Source: Deltaproteobacteria bacterium
Lineage (GTDB): Bacteria; Myxococcota; JADLHZ01
Assembly: GCA_020848545.1 (NCBI GenBank)
Contig: JADLHZ010000140.1
Coordinates: 1 to 64,000 of the forward strand
Direction: 5' to 3'
DNA length: 64,000 nt
A model generated the notes under the pieces. The model had not been told where the DNA came from and did no database searches. It was given only the letters and a program-made list of their open reading frames with translations. The translations under genes were made by a program, and so were the position numbers. Each line of letters starts with the position of its first letter. The first letter of the stretch is position 1. Shown here one piece after another: positions 4,611 through 58,802 of the stretch.

Positions 4611-4660
4611 CCAAGTGTCCAATAGTTGGACAAATAAAAGGTCCCTGGGACCTTTTTTTA
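4611..4660 (-). terminator. Tandem hairpins, probable intrinsic terminator
   Basis: Two inverted repeats sit side by side: GTCCAATAGTTGGAC (4617-4631, perfect 6-bp arms) and AAAAGGTCCCTGGGACCTTTT (about 4637-4657). On the minus strand the second hairpin directly follows the stop codon of the PPDK-like gene and runs into TTTTATTTG, as expected for a Rho-independent terminator insulating yqeY-dnaG-rpoD. A seven-T run also follows the stem on the plus strand, so it may be bidirectional. The GGTCCC/GGGACC arms recur elsewhere in the window. Confidence 0.6.
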
Positions 4661-7066
4661 GTAGCTGTGGGCGAAGATTTCCTGCTGCCCGTGCTCCACC
4701 CGGACGAAGCCTTCGCGGATCTTCTTTTGATCCGGGTCCATGCCTTGGTGCCCAGTGTTGGCCATGCACCAAAGGAGCGCCTTCTCGGTGGCGAAGCGGA
4801 AGCCGAGGCCCTCGGGAAACTGGCCGTAGATGATGCGGATCCATTGCTGCGACGCGGCGATCTCGGGGGTGATAGCCGAGAAGAAGGCGGCGTCGTTGCC
4901 GGCCGGGATGAAGCCGGCTTCGCCCGGGTTGGCGGCGACGATCTCGTCCCACTTCTTCGAATGCTGCGGGTGCTCGCCGCGCACCTTGCGCAAGCTGTTC
5001 ATCACGCGATCGGCGAGCACGCGCGACGTGGCGGCGGGCGCAGGCTTCGGCGTCGACGGAACGCTCGCCGCCTCGACGCGCGCGGCGACCGCGGACTTCA
5101 CCGGCGCCGTCGTCTCTTGCGAGATGGCGCCGGCGAGGATCCAGCTCGACGCGATCGCCGACACGGCCACGCTCGCGGCGTCGACCTTCGCTTCGTTCTG
5201 CAAAAAGCGCAGCGACGCCTCATCGCTCGCCTGCGCGCCGCACAACGATACCGGCAGATCCGGCTTCGCCGCGCGGCCCTGCGACACGGCGATGTGGATC
5301 ATCTTTCCGACCGTCGAAAGCTCGAGCGATCGAAAGGGATCGCCGTGCCTGCGTGCGGGCAGCCGCGCCGCGTCGTCGCGGGAGATGCCGAGCGTCATCT
5401 GCGTCAGATCGTTCGAGCCGATACAGAAGTCGTCGCAGCGCTCGGCGAGCTCGTAGGCGTTGAGCGCAGCGGCCGGCGTCTCGATCATGCACGCGAGGCG
5501 ACTCGCCGGCGCCTGCACGCCTTCGGCCGCGAGCTTCTTTCGCACGCCGTCGATCATTGTTTTCGCCGCGTCGAGCTCGTCGACGGCGCTCACCATCGGA
5601 ACGATGATCGTCAGCTTCGACGCCTTGCCGGTCTCGGCCTCGAACTTCGCCGCGGCGCGCAGCATCGCTTCGATCTGTGTCTCGTAGATGTCGGGCCGCG
5701 CGATACCCAAGCGAATGCCGCGCAGGCCGAGCATAGGGTTCACTTCGCGCTCTTTCTCGATGCGGGCGCTGAGCGTCTGCGCCGAGGTGCCGAGGGCTTT
5801 GGCGAGCGCCTGCGTCTCGGCGGCGTCGTGCGGCATGAACTCGTGCGCCGGCGGATCGAGCAAGCGGATCTTCAGCGTGCCGCCGTCTGCCGCGTCGAAG
5901 AGCGCCTTGAAGTCGTCGTACGATCGGCGGGCGAGATCGGCGCTGGCCGATGCGTCGCCGGGCGCGAGCAGCACGCGTTGCAGAATCTGTCGCGCGTCAT
6001 TTTCGAGGAACATGTGCTCGCTGCGGGCGAGGCCCACGCCAAGGGCGCCCTTCCTCTTCGCCTCGCGCACCTGCTCGGGCGTGTCCGCGTTGGCGAAGAT
6101 GCGCACCTTCGCGCCCCGCTTCGCTTCCTCGACGAGCGCTTGCACCTCGGGCCGTTCGCTCGCAGCAATCACCGTCCGCGCGCCGTCGTAGATCGCGCCG
6201 GATGAGCCATCGACCGAGATCGCGTCGCCGGCCTTCATCGTTCGCGCGCCGATGATCAGCGCGTCGACGCCGAGCGACGCGCCCTGCACGCCGCCGAAGT
6301 TCACGCCTGGCACGCCGCGTTCGCGCGCGACCACGGCCGCGTGCGCGCTGTAGCCGCCGCGAAAGGTGACGATCGCGGCGACGTTGCCAAGGCCGGTCGT
6401 TTCATCCGGGCGCAGCTCGTCTTTCACGAGCACGACCTTCTTGCCGGTGGCGGCGAGCGTCGTCGCTTGGTCGAGATCGAAGGCGATGACACCGCTCGCG
6501 CCGCCGGGCGAAACGCCGAGGCCGCTGGCGAGCGCTTTGTCCCCTGCTGCGAGCTGCAACACCGGACGCGTCGAGGCGAGCAGATCTGCGATCGACGCCT
6601 TCGCTTCGGTCTTCGGCGCCGGTGGAAGCACGGGAGCTACCGCCACACCGGGCGCGATCGCCGCCGGCACCTGGTGCGAGTAGATGTAGCCTTCGCGAAT
6701 GAAGCGCGCGCCACCGTCGGCGTCGGCGCCGAGCTCTTGATGATGGATGTCGGTGCCGCGAAACTGCGGCGCGTTCTCGGTGTCGACCCAGCGCAAGACG
6801 GCCGTGCGACCTTCGTACAAAGCGACTACGCGCAGGGCCCGGCTGTCGCGCGGGAGCTTCTGCAGGTCCTCGTCGGTGCGAATCTCCCCGGCGCGGCCCT
6901 TCGGTCCCAACGCCTTCAGAAGATCCGGCCACGCAAAGCCCGCGGTCGAGCGATCGTTGGCGCTCCTGCGGCGTTCGAGCGACTTGAACAGCGCGTCGAC
7001 GAGACTCGTGCTCGCGGCGGGCGTCTGAGTGACAGAGGCTGTGGCTCCGATACGCGCGATCGTCAT
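4658..7066 (-). CDS. PPDK-like PEP-utilising protein lacking the ATP-grasp domain
   Basis: An 802-aa protein resembling the second half of pyruvate phosphate dikinase. Residues 1-145 match nothing I recognise. A phosphohistidine domain follows with GGYSAHAAVVARERG (His about residue 242). The PEP/pyruvate TIM barrel shows LGVGLARSEHMF, RLLDPPAHEF (~401-410), NPMLGLRGIRLG, MIETPAA, SNDLTQ and SLCGAQASD, whose Cys (~609) fits the catalytic cysteine of PPDK. The N-terminal ATP-grasp domain of true PPDK is absent. Residues ~650-802 form an unknown extension with an Ala/Pro-rich hinge. It may take phosphate from a partner or serve regulation; the substrate is unknown. A hairpin terminator follows the stop. 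Confidence 0.85.
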   Translation of the reverse strand: MTIARIGATASVTQTPAASTSLVDALFKSLERRRSANDRSTAGFAWPDLLKALGPKGRAGEIRTDEDLQKLPRDSRALRVVALYEGRTAVLRWVDTENAPQFRGTDIHHQELGADADGGARFIREGYIYSHQVPAAIAPGVAVAPVLPPAPKTEAKASIADLLASTRPVLQLAAGDKALASGLGVSPGGASGVIAFDLDQATTLAATGKKVVLVKDELRPDETTGLGNVAAIVTFRGGYSAHAAVVARERGVPGVNFGGVQGASLGVDALIIGARTMKAGDAISVDGSSGAIYDGARTVIAASERPEVQALVEEAKRGAKVRIFANADTPEQVREAKRKGALGVGLARSEHMFLENDARQILQRVLLAPGDASASADLARRSYDDFKALFDAADGGTLKIRLLDPPAHEFMPHDAAETQALAKALGTSAQTLSARIEKEREVNPMLGLRGIRLGIARPDIYETQIEAMLRAAAKFEAETGKASKLTIIVPMVSAVDELDAAKTMIDGVRKKLAAEGVQAPASRLACMIETPAAALNAYELAERCDDFCIGSNDLTQMTLGISRDDAARLPARRHGDPFRSLELSTVGKMIHIAVSQGRAAKPDLPVSLCGAQASDEASLRFLQNEAKVDAASVAVSAIASSWILAGAISQETTAPVKSAVAARVEAASVPSTPKPAPAATSRVLADRVMNSLRKVRGEHPQHSKKWDEIVAANPGEAGFIPAGNDAAFFSAITPEIAASQQWIRIIYGQFPEGLGFRFATEKALLWCMANTGHQGMDPDQKKIREGFVRVEHGQQEIFAHSY

Positions 7067-7157: not shown

Positions 7158-8021
7158 CTAGAAGATGCCCGGCGTGCCGCCGCTGGTGCCGCCGCCGCTG
7201 CCCTTCGTCAGGTTTTGACCCTTGAAGTTCGCCGCGGTCCTCGCCTGTTCGAGGCCTTCGTTGCGCGACGTCAACGATTCGAGCTGTTTCGTCGTTGCCT
7301 GAGTGTCCGCGACGCGCAACATCCCGCGCAGGAGCGCCGACGGATCGGCGTCCATCCCGTGCAAGCGGCGCGACGCGTCTGCGAGCACGGCGGCGCTGTT
7401 TTCACCGATCGGCACCGCGCTGTCCATTCTCAGCGCCGCAGCGGTGGATTCGAGCTTCTCCGTGCCCTCGCCGAACTTCTCTTTGAACTTCGCCACCATC
7501 GCGGCCGACATCTTTGCGTTGTTCTCTTCGCTGCCGTTCTTCGCGTTGGCCTCGGCGCGCTCCATGATCTTCTGCGCTTCCGAAAGCTTCTTCTGATTGA
7601 AGTCCGACTCCGAAAACACCTTCTCGCCGATGGCGCCGAGGTTGTTCGTCGCTTCGATGCTCTCGAGCTCCGCCATGTCGGCGATGCCCATGCGGAAGCT
7701 GATGGCGCCGATGAGGCCTTCGGGCGAAAAAAGATTCGACTGCGGCTTGCCGTCATCGCCCGTGGTCACGAGGCGGCGGCCCGTTTCGCCCAAGCGCGCG
7801 GCCGCGTCGGCGTCGTCGACCAGCGCCGACTCCAACGGGATCATCAGCTTCTTGCCGGTGGACACCGCGTTCAGGGCGTCCTTATTCATGAAGTCGGTGT
7901 TCTTGTTCTGGAACTCGAAGTTGTTCAGAACCTTCTTGGTCTCGGGGCCTTTGGTCTTGCCGGTCTGCTGCGACTGGACTTGGCCAGGGACTACTCTGTT
8001 CTTGATGCCGCCGTCGTTCAT
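7158..8021 (-). CDS. Hypothetical helical protein
   Basis: A 287-aa soluble protein with no family I recognise. It has no signal peptide and no membrane segment. The composition is Ala/Glu/Lys-rich and mostly helical through the middle (KLSEAQKIMERAEANAK, KMSAAMVAKFKEKFGEG). The tail is Gly-rich (KGSGGGTSGGTPGIF), suggesting a flexible end. The ATG is preceded on the minus strand by a strong GAGGAGAATGCG ribosome-binding site. It lies about 90 bp upstream of the PPDK-like gene on the same strand, so co-transcription is plausible, though that does not reveal its function. Confidence 0.8.
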   Translation of the reverse strand: MNDGGIKNRVVPGQVQSQQTGKTKGPETKKVLNNFEFQNKNTDFMNKDALNAVSTGKKLMIPLESALVDDADAAARLGETGRRLVTTGDDGKPQSNLFSPEGLIGAISFRMGIADMAELESIEATNNLGAIGEKVFSESDFNQKKLSEAQKIMERAEANAKNGSEENNAKMSAAMVAKFKEKFGEGTEKLESTAAALRMDSAVPIGENSAAVLADASRRLHGMDADPSALLRGMLRVADTQATTKQLESLTSRNEGLEQARTAANFKGQNLTKGSGGGTSGGTPGIF

Positions 8022-49183: not shown

Positions 49184-49215
49184 TTGGATGGTCCCTGGGT
49201 GTCTCTAACGGTGGC

Positions 49216-50871
49216 TCAAGTAGCCGGTGTCAAAGCTGTTTTCTTCCCGAATTTGCGGTTGATATAGGCCTGCTGAAGGATGGTCAAGATGGTGTTGACG
49301 AAGATGTAGAAGACGAGGCCCGAGGGCAGCCCTACCATGAACAGCGTCATCAGCGGCGGCATCATATAGAGCATGATCTTCTGCTGCTGCGGATCGCCGG
49401 CCGGCGGCGACAGCTTTTGCTGCACGAACATCACGCCGCCGAGCAGGAGCGGCAAGATGTAGAACGGATCCTTCGCCGTCAGATCGCCGAGCCACAAAAA
49501 TTCCTGTTGATAGAGCTCGACCGCGGCCCACAGCGTGCGCCAGAGCGCGAAGTACACCGGCATTTGTAAGAGCGCCGGCAGACACCCGCTCAAGAACGGA
49601 TTGACGCCGCGCTCTTTGTAGAGCCGCATCGTCTCGAGCCCCTGCTTCTCGCGATCGTCGGGGAAGCGGGCTTTGATCTTGTCGAGGTCCGGCTTCAGGT
49701 CACGCATCACCTGCATCGACATGAACGACTTCTGCGTCACCGGCAGAAGCAAAAGCTTGACGATGAGCGTGAGGATCAAGATCGCGATGCCGTAACTGTG
49801 AAAGATCCCGTACGCCTGGTTCAGGATCCACAGCATCGGCCGGCTCAAGAAGCCGAGCGGCATGAACCAGACTTTGTAGTCGATCGCTTCTTCGAGCTCC
49901 TTGTTCGGCCGCTTCAAGAACGCGCTCGCCTTCGGGCCGGCGTAGACCTTGAAGTGTTGCGTGAGCGTTTGGCCTGGCGCGAGCTTGGTCTCCGGCGCTG
50001 CCAGCGTGGCCGACATGCTGACGAAAGAGCTGCCGGTGCGCGCGCGCTGCTCGTCGAAGTCGGCGCCAACGATCAGCGTTTGCTCGGGCGCGGCGGCGAG
50101 CAAGAAGTACTGCTTGTCGATGCCGGCCCACGCGAGCGGCTTTCCTGTGGGCGGATCATCGTTCTCGCCGTGCGCGTGCTTGTAGAGCTGGCCGTCGATG
50201 TACGCGGCCGGCGCGATGAGGTCCGGCGGCGGCTCGAACATGCTCTTGTCCTTCAGCGTCTTCTCGTCGAACAGGCCGGCGAGTCTGAGCGCTGGCGACA
50301 CCGTGGTCTCGCTCGCGCCCGTGTTCTTCAGCTCGACGTCGAGCGCGAGCAAGTAGTCGTGCTCGGCGAACGCCCAGCGCGCGTGGCCTTCGAGTGATCC
50401 TTGCTTGTATTGAAAGTCGACGCCGCGCTCGCTCTTGCTCATCGACGAGAAGATCATCGGCGCGCCGCCGAGCAGCACCGACGCACCGTCAACGCGTTCG
50501 CCGGCGGGCTCGCCGAGCAAGCTCACCGGGTGCTTTTGCTCGCCGCGCCTCTTGCCGCCCTCCTTATATTCCTTGAGCGTCACGTGCGTGATCGCGGCGC
50601 CGTAGGACGAGAGCTCGACGTGCATCAGCGGCGTGTCGATCGCTTCTTTCTGCTCGGGTAACGCCGGTGCCACCGGCTGCGACGCCGCGGCTGCTGCGGC
50701 GACCGCGGGCGACGACGCCGGCACGTTAGCGAGGGGCGCCTTCGTCGCGGGCTGCGACGCGCTCTGAGCCGTTGGCGGCGCCGGTTTTTTCGGCGGCGCG
50801 ACGACCAAGTTCCAAAACAGCATGATGCCGAGGCACACGAGCACGGTGATGAAGACGCGTTTATCGATCAT
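49216..50871 (-). CDS. yidC: Membrane protein insertase YidC
   Basis: A 551-aa insertase. N-terminal helix ([20 protein letters not shown]), large periplasmic beta domain (~60-330), then the conserved insertase core with [41 protein letters not shown] and [15 protein letters not shown]. It inserts membrane proteins alone or with SecYEG. Its start overlaps the yidD stop (ATGA). Confidence 0.97.
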
Positions 50872-51107
50872 GCAGGATCCTCGGGCTTCGGCGTAATTCT
50901 CGGGACGGGGTCGTAGCCATAACCGGCGAACGGATGACAGCGGCCGACGCGGCGGATGGCGAGCAGCGTGCCGCGGAGCGGGCCGTGGGTGCGCAGCGCT
51001 TCGACGGCGTACTCAGAGCAGGACGGCAAGTAGCGGCAGCGCCCGCCGAGAAAAGGCGAGAGCAACAACTGATAGAGGCGTATGAAGAGAACGAGCAGCG
51101 AGGTCAC
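50868..51107 (-). CDS. yidD: Membrane protein insertion efficiency factor YidD
   Basis: A 79-aa protein of the YidD family: [31 protein letters not shown], followed by [15 protein letters not shown] at 51107 overlaps the rnpA stop (GTGA) and gives the usual length; an ATG at 51167 would place 20 extra residues antisense-free within rnpA and is less likely. It aids YidC. Confidence 0.95.
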
Positions 51108-51478
51108 GGCCGCGGCTTTCGCTTGAAGTACCGATCGCTGTCGAGGAGTCCTAACATTTCGTCGCACAGGCTGGCGCTGTCTAGCTCGGCAGCGCCCACT
51201 TTGGCGACGATCACATAATCATAGCCAGGGCGAAAGGGAACCCGCCCGCGCCGAAAGAGCTCGCGCACGCGACGTTTGAAGCGATTTCTGTCGTGAGACT
51301 TGCCGACTTTACGCGAGACGGCGAGCCCGAGCCGCGGATGATCGCGCTCGTTCGACCGAAACCACAGGATGAGGTGCGCTGACGCTCGCCGTTTGCCGCG
51401 CGTCTTGCAGTCGACGAATTCTTGCGACTTGATCAGTCTAAGACGCTTCGCAAAGCGCTCTGTGCTCGCGGATTCCAC
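51104..51478 (-). CDS. rnpA: Ribonuclease P protein component RnpA
   Basis: Protein subunit of RNase P (124 aa), which matures tRNA 5' ends. The family motif is in [17 protein letters not shown], with [12 protein letters not shown] before it and [14 protein letters not shown] after. The start is GTG at 51478; the frame stays open further upstream only through rpmH. It lies 49 bp downstream of rpmH on the same strand. Confidence 0.93.
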
Positions 51479-51527
51479 AACGAAAGTGACGCGGTCGCGC
51501 CCGGCCGCAGACGGACGAGAAAGCCGT

Positions 51528-51680
51528 CTACTTCTTGGCGACTTTGACCGTGAGCTTCTTCCTGCCCTTGGCCCGGCGCCGCGCGAGCACCTTGCGGCCA
51601 CCCTTCGTGGCCATGCGATTTCTGAAGCCGTGCGTCTTCTTGCGCCGGCGATTGCTCGGTTGATAGGTGCGCTTCGACAT
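51528..51680 (-). CDS. rpmH: 50S ribosomal protein L34
   Basis: A 50-aa, highly basic L34: [19 protein letters not shown], then [19 protein letters not shown], ending KLTVKVAKK. Short but unmistakable. It is the first gene of the rpmH-rnpA-yidD-yidC-jag cluster flanking the origin, transcribed away from dnaA. Confidence 0.97.
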
Positions 51681-52119
51681 GTTTCGGTCCTCTCAAGATG
51701 CCTCCAAAGCAGCAGGCAAAGTGGACGCGGCCCGTATCCGATTCCGGCCGGGAGCGTCAAGGTGCCGGCGGCGGCGGCGGCGGGGCCAATCGACATCGAC
51801 GCGTGACCATTTTGTCACTTAGCATTTGACTTGCTGCACACCCTTTGTTACGAGGCTCACCCCTTGCCGAACTCCGAATGACGATTCGGGGCGCGCTGCG
51901 GGCGAAGCCGGGCAACCGGTTCGAACACCTCCCAACAATTTGTAAGAAACGGCGGAGCGCACACTCATGGGCCTGTGGATAAGTCTGTGTACAGTTTGTG
52001 GTTTGCCCACGTAAGCAGCTGAATTCGAAGACGTTTTGCTCTGAGAAGTTTGTAACAGTTGTAGCGCAGTGGTGGCGACGTCGAACCGGCTTCGACGTTC
52101 TGAGGGAGCGGCTTTCAGC
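51681..52119. other. rpmH-dnaA intergenic region, oriC candidate
   Basis: A 439-bp gap between divergent rpmH and dnaA, less GC-rich than its surroundings. It holds one perfect DnaA box (51974-51982, TGTGGATAA, reverse of TTATCCACA) and related words such as TGTGTACAG and TTTGTGG just after it. It must also hold promoters of both genes. No tandem box cluster is evident, so whether it is the functional origin is not certain. Confidence 0.55.
51974..51982 (-). promoter_or_regulatory. DnaA box (perfect consensus)
   Basis: TGTGGATAA is the exact reverse complement of the consensus TTATCCACA, about 140 bp upstream of dnaA. It may serve replication initiation or dnaA autoregulation. Confidence 0.7.
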
Positions 52120-53598
52120 ATGGCACCAGACGTGAGCGAGCAGGGGAGAGACCGGATGGGTGAGCAGGGCACGGACGGCGCGGGCGGACATCACAGCACG
52201 CCGGCAAAGCCAGCGGAGCCGCAGCGCGCGGGCCCTGAGGTCGACAGTTATTGGCGCGACATCCTGGCGCTGATCCGCACCCGGGTGAACGACTTCGTCT
52301 TCAACGCCTTCTTTCAGCCGCTGCGCCCGGTCGGCCTCGACGCCGAGCGGCTGCGTATGGAGATCCACGACCAGTTCACCCGCGACTGGATCGAAGATCA
52401 CTACCGCTTCGTCATTGAAGAGGCGCAGGGCGAGCTCGCGGTGCAAGTCCCGTGGGCGGCGCCGCGCAGCTTCACCTTGAGCGTCAACCCAGACCTCGTC
52501 GATCCGCGGCAGAACAACGCCGCACCCGCGCACGAAGTCACCGTCCGTTCGGCGCCGCAGCCGACCGCCGAACGCAGGACGCTCAACGACAAGTACGCCT
52601 TCAACACCTTCGTCGTCGGCCCGTCGAACCAGTTCGCGTTCGCGGCGTCACGCGCGGTCGCGGACAAGCCGGCGCTCGCCTACAATCCTTTGTTCCTCTT
52701 CGGCGGCGTCGGTCTCGGCAAGACCCACCTCATCAACGCCATCGCTCAAAGCATCTTACAGTCGAACCCGAATTTTCGCGTCATCTACACCTCGAGCGAG
52801 CAGTTCATGAACGAGGTGATCAACGGCATCCGCTACGGCAAGATGGAAGAGTTCCACAACAAGTACCGCAAGAACTGTGACGTCCTCTTGATGGACGACA
52901 TCCAGCTCATCGCCGGCAAAGACCGCACCCAGGAAGAGTTCTTCCACACCTTCAACACGCTGCACGAGCTGAAGAAGCAGATCGTCGTCTCGAGCGACAA
53001 GCTGCCGCACGAGATCCCCGGCCTCGAAGAGCGCATGCGCACGCGTTTTCAGTGGGGGCTCATCGCCGACATTCAGCCGCCCGAGATCGAGACGCGCATC
53101 GCCATTCTGAAGAAGAAGGCGGAGGCCGAAAACGTCGACTTACCGGACGACGTGGCCATGTTCTTGGCCGAGAACATCAGGAGCAACGTGCGCGAGCTCG
53201 AGGGCGCGCTGATCCGCGTCGTCGCGCACAGCTCGTTGACCGGCGCGCGCATCAGTATCGACTACGCCAAGCACGTGCTCGCGGAGCTGCTCGCGGGCCG
53301 GCGCCACCAGGTGACCGTCGAATCGATTCAGAAGGCGGTGGCGGCGTTCTACAACGTCAAGATCGCCGACTTGAAGTCGCAGCGCCGGCACAAGATCGTC
53401 GCGCGGCCCCGGCAGGTCGCGATGTATCTCTGTCGAAAGCTCCTGAACGCGTCGTATCCCGAGCTCGGCGATCGCTTCGGCGGCAAGGATCACACGACGA
53501 TTTTGTCGGCGTGCCGCAAGATGGAAGCGCTGTCGACCAAAGACAATCAACTGCGCACCGAGCTCTTGGAGCTGCAGCGCAAGATTCAGGATTCGTGA
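52120..53598 (+). CDS. dnaA: Chromosomal replication initiator DnaA
   Basis: A 492-aa replication initiator. N-terminal domain I (YWRDILALIRTRVNDFVF), a short linker, AAA+ domain III with Walker A in GGVGLGKTHL and Walker B LLMDDIQLIAGKDRTQEEFFHTF, and domain IV with the DNA-binding signature FGGKDHTTILSACRKM. Possible starts are GTG 52069, ATG 52120 and ATG 52156; the last has an excellent GGGGAG site, so it is also plausible. It leads dnaA-dnaN-recF-gyrB. Confidence 0.97.
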   Translation: MAPDVSEQGRDRMGEQGTDGAGGHHSTPAKPAEPQRAGPEVDSYWRDILALIRTRVNDFVFNAFFQPLRPVGLDAERLRMEIHDQFTRDWIEDHYRFVIEEAQGELAVQVPWAAPRSFTLSVNPDLVDPRQNNAAPAHEVTVRSAPQPTAERRTLNDKYAFNTFVVGPSNQFAFAASRAVADKPALAYNPLFLFGGVGLGKTHLINAIAQSILQSNPNFRVIYTSSEQFMNEVINGIRYGKMEEFHNKYRKNCDVLLMDDIQLIAGKDRTQEEFFHTFNTLHELKKQIVVSSDKLPHEIPGLEERMRTRFQWGLIADIQPPEIETRIAILKKKAEAENVDLPDDVAMFLAENIRSNVRELEGALIRVVAHSSLTGARISIDYAKHVLAELLAGRRHQVTVESIQKAVAAFYNVKIADLKSQRRHKIVARPRQVAMYLCRKLLNASYPELGDRFGGKDHTTILSACRKMEALSTKDNQLRTELLELQRKIQDS

Positions 53599-53924
53599 GG
53601 TCTGGACGCCGCGATCGGAGCATGCCAAGTGACGCGGAAAGTTTTTTAGGGATGCGTGTCGGAAGAAATGACTGTGGAGAAGGCTGTGAAGAAGGGTGGG
53701 GTAAGCGGTGACAAAGTGTGCGCAGGTCGCACCAGCTGTGCACCGCGCAAATTCATCCCGTGCGGCGCACACACCTTCACGCGGGAACTTTGTCGAACGA
53801 AAGCGAGAGGGTAGCGGGCTTATCCCCAGAAAAACGGCCGGCTAATACTACTATTTAGATCTTTATAAATACATAAGAAGAAGAGAAGGCAGCGCGCAGG
53901 CAACCGCAGAGCGAGGAGAGCAAA
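53599..53924. other. dnaA-dnaN intergenic region, second oriC candidate
   Basis: A 326-bp gap. It has DnaA-box-like words: TGTGGAGAA (53673, one mismatch) and TTATCCCCA (53820, one mismatch). Next to the latter is an AT-rich tract (53842-53882, TTTAGATCTTTATAAATACA), conspicuous in this GC-rich sequence, as expected for a DNA-unwinding element. Spacing before dnaN is longer than usual for an operon. It also likely contains the dnaN promoter. Confidence 0.55.
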
Positions 53925-55037
53925 ATGAAATTCATCACGAGTGCAAACACCCTGGCAGACCACCTGTACCGCGTGCAGGGTGTCGCAAGCGCCAAGTCGA
54001 CCATGCCGGCGCTCTCGCACGTGTTGCTCCGCGCGGACGGGCAGCAGCTCAAGCTCAGCGCCACCGACCTCGACCTCGCGATCGAAGATTTCGTGCCGGT
54101 GAAGGTGGAGCAAGCAGGCAGCGTGGCGCTTCCGGCGAAGAGCCTGTTCGAAGTCGTGAAGACCTTGCCGCCGGGCGACGTGTCGCTGACGCTCGTCGAC
54201 AACCAGCGCGTCGAGATCAAAGCGCCGAAGGCCACGTTCAAGCTCGTCGGCGTGTCGGCCGGTGAGTTCCCCGCGATCCCGCAAGTGCCGGACACCCAGA
54301 GCATCGAGCTGCCGGCGCGTGAGATCGCCCGGATGATCGACGGCACGATCTTCTGCGTCTCGACCGACGACGCCCGCTACAACCTCACGGGCGTGTACTG
54401 GGAGGCGCTGCAAGGCGGCAAGGGCCTGCGCTTCGTCGCCACCGATGGCCATCGCTTGGCGCTGATGGAGCGCGCGTTCGACCAGCACGTGACGATGAAG
54501 CCGGTCATCGTACCGAAGAAGGCGCTCATCGAGCTGAAGCGCTTGCTTGGCGCGACGCCGGCCGAAGAACAACGCGTGCGCTGCGCGTTCAGCGACAACC
54601 ATGTGGTGTTCGGCGTCGGCGACGTCAAGTTGAGCTCGCGGCTCATCGAGGGCCAATTCCCGGACTACGAGCAGGTCATCCCGAAGAGCGCGCCGAACGT
54701 CGTGAAGGCGTCACGCGCAGAGCTCTCGGATGCGTTGAAGCGGGTGTCGATCATGTCGCCGGACAAGTCGTTCGGCATCCGCCTCCACGTCGAGAACGAC
54801 CGCGTGCGCGTCGAGAGCCAGAACCCGCTGCTCGGCGAAGCGTCGCAAGAGATCGATGTCGAGTACCAAGGGCCGGCGATCACCATCGGCTTCAACGCGC
54901 ACTACTTGCTCGAGGTGCTCTCGCAGATCAGCGAAGGCGGCGTGCGCATCGAGCTCGCCGATCACATTTCGCCCGCGCTCGTGCGGCCGATTGAGTCGCG
55001 CGACCTGCTCGGCGTCGTCATGCCGATGCGTGTGTAG
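53925..55037 (+). CDS. dnaN: DNA polymerase III sliding clamp beta subunit
   Basis: A 370-aa clamp that tethers polymerase to DNA. Three repeated domains are visible; motifs include LSHVLLRADGQQLKLSATDLDLAIE, RFVATDGHRLALMER and the C-terminal VRPIESRDLLGVVMPMRV. The start is ATG with GAGGAGAGCAAA upstream. The gap to recF (89 bp) is framed by an inverted 12-bp repeat. Confidence 0.98.
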   Translation: MKFITSANTLADHLYRVQGVASAKSTMPALSHVLLRADGQQLKLSATDLDLAIEDFVPVKVEQAGSVALPAKSLFEVVKTLPPGDVSLTLVDNQRVEIKAPKATFKLVGVSAGEFPAIPQVPDTQSIELPAREIARMIDGTIFCVSTDDARYNLTGVYWEALQGGKGLRFVATDGHRLALMERAFDQHVTMKPVIVPKKALIELKRLLGATPAEEQRVRCAFSDNHVVFGVGDVKLSSRLIEGQFPDYEQVIPKSAPNVVKASRAELSDALKRVSIMSPDKSFGIRLHVENDRVRVESQNPLLGEASQEIDVEYQGPAITIGFNAHYLLEVLSQISEGGVRIELADHISPALVRPIESRDLLGVVMPMRV

Positions 55038-55121
55038 GACCTGGGACCTGTCAGAAAATCGACGGCGGCCTTTGCTTCTTCAGAAACCGTCGTGAACGGT
55101 TCGTCATAAGGTCCCTGGTCC
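55037..55121. repeat. Inverted 12-mers flanking the dnaN-recF gap
   Basis: GGACCTGGGACC (55037-55048) and GGTCCCTGGTCC (55110-55121) are inverted copies with 11 of 12 matches, 61 bp apart. The inner sequence contains another hairpin (AACCGT...ACGGTT). The first copy begins on the last base of the dnaN stop codon; the second lies 5 bp before the recF start. It could form a stem spanning the gap, controlling recF translation or transcript processing. Confidence 0.6.
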
Positions 55122-55126
55122 TTGCC

Positions 55127-56221
55127 ATGTTGGTTCGAACGCTCCGCGCCGAGAAATTCCGTAACCTCCAGCGCGTCTCCCTCTCGTTCTCTGCCCGCGT
55201 CAACGTGTTGCTCGGCCCAAACGGCCAGGGCAAGACGAACCTCTTGGAGGCGCTCTACCTCATCGCCGGCTTTCGCTCGTTTCGCGGCGCCAAGACGCGT
55301 GAGCTCATCGCGCAGGACGGCGAGGCGGCGCGGCTCGTGGCCGAGGTGGAAGCGGACGGCGTCGAGCGCGCGGTCGAGCTCACGCTGAGGCCGAAGGGCA
55401 AGGCCTACCTTGTCGACGGAAAGGCGCCGGGCTCGCTCGCCGACTGGGTCGGGCGGCTCGTAATGGTCACCTTCTCGCCGGACGACTTGTTCTTGGTGAA
55501 AGGGGAGCCAGACATCCGTCGGCGTTGGCTCGATCGGGTGATCTTCCTGCTCGACCCGGAGCACCTGCGCTTCGTCATGCAATACACGAAGGCCTTGAAG
55601 ACGCGAAACGCGCTGTTGAAAGACGGCATGTTCGGGCGCGACATGCTGCTGCTCGACGCGTTCGATGCGACGCTCGCCAAGTGCGGTGCGAAGGTGCGCG
55701 CCGCGCGGGCGCGGTGGATCGCCGAGCTCTCGCTGCTCGTCGATCGCGAGCTCTCGGCGCTGACCGGCGGCGTGCATCATGCGAAGCTCGCGGACGACAG
55801 CGAAGTCGGCGCCGCGGATGAGGCCGCGTACCTCGCGACGCTCGTGCAACGCCGAGAAGACGACGTGAAGCGGAGGCTGACGAGCTGGGGCGTGCACCAC
55901 GACGACCTCGAAGTGACGATCTCCGAGCGCGTCGCGCGCCGCTTCGCGAGTCAGGGGGAGCAACGGGCGCTCACCTTGGCGATGAAGCTCGCCGAGACCG
56001 AGCTCGTGCGCGAGCGGCGAAAAGTCGCGCCGGTTTTGCTCTTGGACGACGTCACCGGAGAGCTCGACGCTGTGCGCAATCAGTTCCTTTTTCGCGAGCT
56101 CGAGCGGCACGAAGGTCAAGTTTTCGTGGCCTGCACCGAGCTGCCAGCGCGGCTCGCGGAGGCGGGCTTTTCCGGCACGATCTTTGACGTCGACGCTGGC
56201 GAAATTCGCGAGCGAAAATAA
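55127..56221 (+). CDS. recF: DNA replication and repair protein RecF
   Basis: A 364-aa SMC-like ATPase that loads RecA at gaps. Walker A in GPNGQGKTNLLEALYLI, the signature SQGEQRALTLAMKLAE and Walker B LLLDDVTGELDAVRNQFLF are present. RTLRAEKFRNL is the usual N-terminus. It follows dnaN and precedes gyrB in the classic order. Confidence 0.97.
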   Translation: MLVRTLRAEKFRNLQRVSLSFSARVNVLLGPNGQGKTNLLEALYLIAGFRSFRGAKTRELIAQDGEAARLVAEVEADGVERAVELTLRPKGKAYLVDGKAPGSLADWVGRLVMVTFSPDDLFLVKGEPDIRRRWLDRVIFLLDPEHLRFVMQYTKALKTRNALLKDGMFGRDMLLLDAFDATLAKCGAKVRAARARWIAELSLLVDRELSALTGGVHHAKLADDSEVGAADEAAYLATLVQRREDDVKRRLTSWGVHHDDLEVTISERVARRFASQGEQRALTLAMKLAETELVRERRKVAPVLLLDDVTGELDAVRNQFLFRELERHEGQVFVACTELPARLAEAGFSGTIFDVDAGEIRERK

Positions 56222-56254
56222 GGGTTTACAAATCGTCACGGGCGGCCGCTTCCC

Positions 56255-58802
<2,548 letters not shown>

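Follow-up and report, generated by a model that had tools for sequence, protein, structure and literature searches.

Pyruvate phosphate dikinase (PPDK) carries a nucleotide-binding domain of ~340 residues, and its His domain faces either of two sites in the available structures, being turned to the PEP site in 5jvl and 2r82 and to the nucleotide-binding domain in 1kbl (PMC5371819). Two further proteins provide precedents for the locus described here: VadK, in which only the ATP half of PPDK is left, autophosphorylates (PMC13400623), and HpeH, when deprived of its ATP-grasp subunit, still moves phosphate between substrates (PMC12167813). The window that we analysed, a whole stretch of 64,000 nucleotides, contains a gene in which the PPDK core is kept and the ATP-grasp domain is absent.

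The gene lies at 4658–7066 on the minus strand (stop codon included), as do all features of it given below, and encodes 802 residues in an intact frame with an ATG start. A Pfam search of the product detected PF00391 (PEP-utilizer mobile domain) at residues 209–290 and PF02896 at 309–639, and otherwise nothing of note; the ATP-grasp family PF01326 was not found in the protein. Residues 154–623 align with residues 368–844 of C. symbiosum PPDK (phmmer, E 8e-82), and identity to PPDKs is 35–39%. The match to TIGR01828 (PPDK) covers model positions 376–840 only and scores 392 bits, below the cutoff of 843. The core, residues ~169–650, corresponds to the PPDK swivel domain with the phosphohistidine His242 and to the PEP/pyruvate barrel with Cys609. 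We placed the swivel domain at residues ~169–300 (6167–6562) from the PF00391 match and Foldseek, and the barrel at residues ~301–650 (5117–6166) from PF02896, the alignment and the well-modelled region. An orphan N-terminal tail (residues 1–168; 6563–7066) occupies the place of the PPDK nucleotide-binding domain, and the barrel is followed by an Ala/Pro-rich linker (residues 651–690; 4997–5116), recognised from the sequence and the model, and by an orphan C-terminal domain (residues 691–802; 4661–4996). Directly 3′ of the stop codon, a terminator-like hairpin, AAAAGGTCCC-A-GGGACCTTTT (4636–4656), was identified by visual inspection; the scan tool, for which its loop is too short, does not list it.

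A six-frame search for PF01326 across the whole 7.99-Mb genome found three loci, none of them on the contig of the PPDK-core gene, which rules out an ATP-grasp domain hidden in another frame or a frameshifted one adjoining the gene. This confirmed the original prediction of a PPDK core without its ATP-grasp domain. The HPr-binding helical domain that forms the N-terminus of Enzyme I (PF05524) was also absent from the protein (Pfam, E ≤ 1). By membership, the protein is therefore not a PPDK, since the ATP-grasp domain is absent and the score lies below the TIGR01828 cutoff, and it is not an Enzyme I, since the HPr-binding domain is missing. It is a new variant assembled from a PPDK core.

When the protein was aligned with 21 PPDKs from its phylum, H242, R401, R449, E529, N552, D553 and C609 all proved to be kept, with the phosphohistidine and the catalytic cysteine at exactly the residues that had been predicted. 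We take these positions to be equivalent to H455, R561, R617, E745, N768, D769 and C831 of C. symbiosum PPDK, C831 being the catalytic acid/base cysteine (C609 codon at 5240–5242). The His loop, GGYSAHAAVVAR (residues 237–248; 6323–6358, with the H242 codon at 6341–6343), contains GGYSAHA, as against GG[MKR]TSHA in the PPDKs inspected, and when 195 genomes of the phylum were scanned with a degenerate DNA pattern for GG[YF][ST]AHA, no further instance emerged. Two short loops of the core are deleted relative to PPDKs. When we sorted the near-invariant columns of 24 PPDKs into those also conserved in Enzyme I and PEP synthase and those confined to PPDK, the protein had kept 45 of the 55 in the first group and 22 of the 38 in the second (Fisher p 0.018). 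Altogether 30 of 96 PPDK-invariant columns are changed; R215, D316 and R532, invariant in 24/24 PPDKs and lacking in Enzyme I, are lost, and E611, conserved in both PPDK and Enzyme I, is replaced by Ala. To judge from the sequence, this pattern of loss is what would be expected if selection still maintained the PEP half-reaction.

AlphaFold modelled the core confidently (pLDDT mostly 80–97), including the barrel fold on which the original prediction depended. In Foldseek comparisons, the swivel domain matched the PPDK phosphoryl-carrier domain 2fm4 (rmsd 1.8), and the core superposed on the PEP-facing structures 5jvl (2.1 Å) and 2r82 (2.9 Å) and not on 1kbl (10.2 Å). The PEP-facing pose may, however, be a by-product of an alignment that contains no ATP domain.

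Both tails read as coding sequence, with GC3 values of 0.80 (N-terminal) and 0.89 (C-terminal) compared with 0.82–0.89 in neighbouring genes. Their expected unfamiliarity was borne out: the N-terminal tail had no match in Pfam, NCBIfam, PDB, its own genome or 58 genomes of the phylum, and the C-terminal tail (residues ~651–802) had none in NCBIfam, PDB, the rest of its own genome or 195 genomes of the phylum. The sole Pfam signal in the tails was a sub-threshold match of the C-terminal tail to DUF6386 (E = 0.056). The comparison genomes belong to the same phylum and the class of the window organism is otherwise unrepresented among them, which partly accounts for the orphan status of the tails. 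Searches with peptide patterns confirmed no close relative in genome_contigs or viral_contigs, and the best plasmid matches proved to be genuine PPDKs covering residues ~152–624. Structure prediction of the end domains, which had been suggested as a check, gave pLDDT values below 50 for both tails in the context of the full protein (up to residue 156 on the N-terminal side) and of 44 for the C-terminal domain folded alone.

Elsewhere, the genome encodes a complete PPDK (contig C84, 872 aa) and a PEP synthase (C139), so the PPDK-core gene is not needed for PPDK metabolism. It also has two Enzyme I proteins (C12 and C21) and one HPr, which adjoins the Enzyme I gene of C12. Two of the three PF01326 loci lie within complete dikinases, and the third is a 705-aa protein on C151 (L045, 280–2394, plus strand) with a C-terminal PPDK_N ATP-grasp domain and no PEP barrel. 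This protein is a second unusual dikinase of the genome: its N-terminal half is of unfamiliar sequence, and a weak GWD1_pHisD match (E 0.008) precedes the ATP-grasp domain, in reversed order relative to PPDK. Directly upstream of the PPDK-core gene, across a gap of 91 bp, lies an orphan gene of 287 aa (7158–8021, minus strand), whose product had no match in Pfam, NCBIfam, PHROGs, PDB or 193 genomes of the phylum; it is a possible operon partner. The two genes presumably sit between murA and yqeY-dnaG-rpoD, names that we assigned by sequence recognition. At ~49200–58800 of the window there are genes that, by eye, we take to resemble jag, yidC, a dnaA candidate, dnaN, recF and gyrB, and the region seems to be a replication-origin neighbourhood.

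We consider that the protein, a strongly diverged PPDK paralogue without the nucleotide half, on balance probably resembles Enzyme I in its activity and is a PEP-dependent histidine phosphotransferase. In the barrel, R401, R449, E529, N552 and D553 would bind PEP and Mg2+, the swivel domain would dock at the barrel so that H242 takes the phosphoryl group, and C609 would protonate the enolate to give pyruvate, the net half-reaction being PEP + His242 -> pyruvate + His242~P. The swivel domain would then pass the phosphate to an acceptor, which may be either of the orphan terminal domains, the protein encoded by the orphan gene upstream or some other protein. The physiological role is probably regulatory, since a normal PPDK, a PEP synthase and an Enzyme I/HPr pair are all present in the genome. 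In favour of this reading we count the homology of the core to PPDK, the intact PEP-binding and catalytic residues, the better retention of the shared columns, the PEP-facing AlphaFold core and the separate complete PPDK and PEP synthase. A parallel may be seen in 91 spirochaete paralogues in which the PEP site is kept and the ATP-site residues R92, E323 and Q335 are substituted. Against it stand the E611A replacement, the 10 of 55 universal columns that differ, tails without detectable relatives and the fact that the protein is a single known sequence; the very long branch of the core (4.68) also fits relaxed constraint. Among the three functions originally proposed, namely phosphate supply by another protein, the PEP/pyruvate half-reaction alone and PEP sensing, the half-reaction is thus the favoured one, because its ligands are kept and the losses fall preferentially in columns dispensable to Enzyme I and PEP synthase.

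An intact PEP site with orphan tails on both sides would also suit a PEP/pyruvate sensor or scaffold, in which the barrel binds PEP and self-phosphorylation or closure of the swivel is the signal and nothing more, with the tails carrying the output and no dedicated phosphate acceptor. The other PEP enzymes of the genome, which cover metabolism, agree with such a role, but binding alone has no need of the catalytic His and Cys, both fully retained, and we regard a pure sensor as unlikely. Decay is the explanation suggested by the very long branch, by the 30 changed columns among 96 and by the lack of an orthologue in 195 genomes of the phylum: a rearrangement would have truncated a PPDK copy, leaving it joined to unrelated sequence and on the way to loss. 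A frame of 802 intact codons, normal coding bias in the core and C-terminal tail, the retention of all checked catalytic residues and the concentration of changes in PPDK-only columns nevertheless make this quite unlikely.

The remaining alternatives would restore a link to ATP. Two-component dikinases exist (PMC12167813), and a separate ATP-grasp protein could charge H242 in trans, as in HpeHI and PpsAB, bringing back the ATP-linked reaction. Phosphate supply by another protein found little in its favour, however. No separate ATP-grasp subunit is encoded near the gene or anywhere on its contig, and the genome-wide search that the original prediction called for, although it returned the C151 protein as an ATP-grasp protein without a PEP barrel, turned up no bare ATP-grasp domain, two of the three loci being complete dikinases. 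We rejected the C151 protein as a stand-alone partner, since it has a weak swivel-like His domain of its own and its gene is not linked. The PPDK-specific residues R215, D316 and R532, which may face the nucleotide domain, are also lost, and a split dikinase is improbable. A further proposal, that the protein is an ordinary PPDK with a highly divergent nucleotide-binding domain gone unrecognised in the N-terminal tail, draws on the failure of AlphaFold to predict a fold for this tail. A cryptic nucleotide fold in residues 1–145 had been named at the outset as the finding that would overturn the initial interpretation; its motifs were looked for and no GGKG, VRSGA, TRDP, QTR or Walker A motif was seen in the tail, whereas the fold itself eluded the model at pLDDT below 50. 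With 168 residues in place of ~340 (PMC5371819) and a complete PPDK elsewhere in the genome, we give this proposal hardly any credence.

The preferred PEP-dependent phosphotransferase gains context from the spirochaetes. When the GG[YF][ST]AHA pattern was searched in genome_contigs, nearly all of the matches listed were spirochaete sequences, and these are PPDK paralogues of ~880 aa (most of L049–L167, L174–L181 and L199). All 91 spirochaete paralogues keep H455, R561, R617, E745, N768 and D769, and carry substitutions at the ATP-grasp residues (K22 to R, R92 to V/I, E323 to R/K/G and Q335 to E/D/N). Since the motif served to retrieve the paralogues, the S-A of their loop follows from the search pattern and cannot count as independent evidence; the loss of the ATP-site residues can. 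A motif-independent search of eight spirochaete genomes, made with TIGR01828, found the GGYSAHA type (625–678 bits) in 8/8 and a canonical full PPDK (GG[MK]TSHA, at least 1280 bits) in 6/8. Another variant of the TSH motif was seen in a spirochaete PEP-utilizer of ~731 aa (L191), whose His loop reads GGASAHVAILAK.

One 1.1-Mb genome (G258) has the GGYSAHA type only, at 810752–813313. These coordinates match TP0746 of T. pallidum, from which, together with the size of the genome, we infer that it is that of T. pallidum. TP0746 is annotated as a PPDK (PMC10013896), and the cited papers assign to the treponemal gene the ATP-forming conversion of PEP to pyruvate in the syphilis spirochaete. Because the genome has only the GGYSAHA type, its annotation as an ATP-forming PPDK appears doubtful.

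The window protein and the spirochaete clade have in common the GGYSAHA loop, K316 and A532 (the last two in most paralogues). Mean identity of the window core is 31% to the spirochaete clade, lower than the 36% to ordinary PPDK, and a tree that holds the two as one clade gives an AU p of 0.54, with both branches long. Descent from the PPDK of the same genome is weakly disfavoured (AU p 0.038).

We tentatively suggest, as a possibility rather than a probability, that conversion of PPDK to a nucleotide-independent PEP-histidine phosphotransferase has occurred repeatedly and is marked by GGYSAHA, with spirochaetes keeping a dead ATP-grasp domain and the window protein having swapped it for docking or acceptor domains of its own. 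The resulting proteins would add a third type of PEP-driven phosphorelay to PTS and PTS-Ntr, a PEP-fed relay outside PTS. Several annotated PPDKs, among them the only one detected in G258, would then form no ATP by the known mechanism, and a central metabolic dikinase would be reducible to its PEP-driven half and open to refitting with new domains, in mirror image to VadK. GGYSAHA as against GG[MKR]TSHA offers a sequence rule for picking out annotated PPDKs whose implied link to ATP is probably mistaken, the treponemal gene being an example.

When set beside the known systems, the window protein has the same swivel domain and PEP barrel as PPDK (TIGR01828; C. symbiosum 1KBL/2DIK, maize 1VBG), with the same catalytic His, PEP/Mg ligands and Cys, and differs from it in the absent ATP-grasp domain, the orphan tails, the GGYSAHA loop, the loss of R215, D316 and R532 and the two loop deletions. 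PTS Enzyme I (TIGR01417; PF05524-PF00391-PF02896) has the same two core domains, runs the PEP half-reaction only and shares with the protein the states at R532 (A/S) and D316 (K/R). The window protein nevertheless lacks the HPr-binding helical domain, is far closer in sequence to PPDK (392 vs 145 bits) and comes from a genome with an Enzyme I of its own beside HPr. In HpeHI and PpsAB, too, the phosphohistidine protein is separate from ATP-grasp, but these systems act on phenolics, have the partner as part of a two-component enzyme and show no PEP barrel activity (PMC12167813). The spirochaete paralogues share the GGYSAHA loop, the intact PEP site and the lost ATP site, and differ in keeping a degenerate ATP-grasp region at full length and in having no orphan tails. 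VadK (Rv1127c) of mycobacteria is likewise a PPDK made into a truncated, non-canonical His phosphoprotein (PMC13400623), and it is the mirror image of the window protein: VadK keeps the ATP-grasp and swivel domains and lacks the PEP barrel, whereas the window protein keeps the opposite half.
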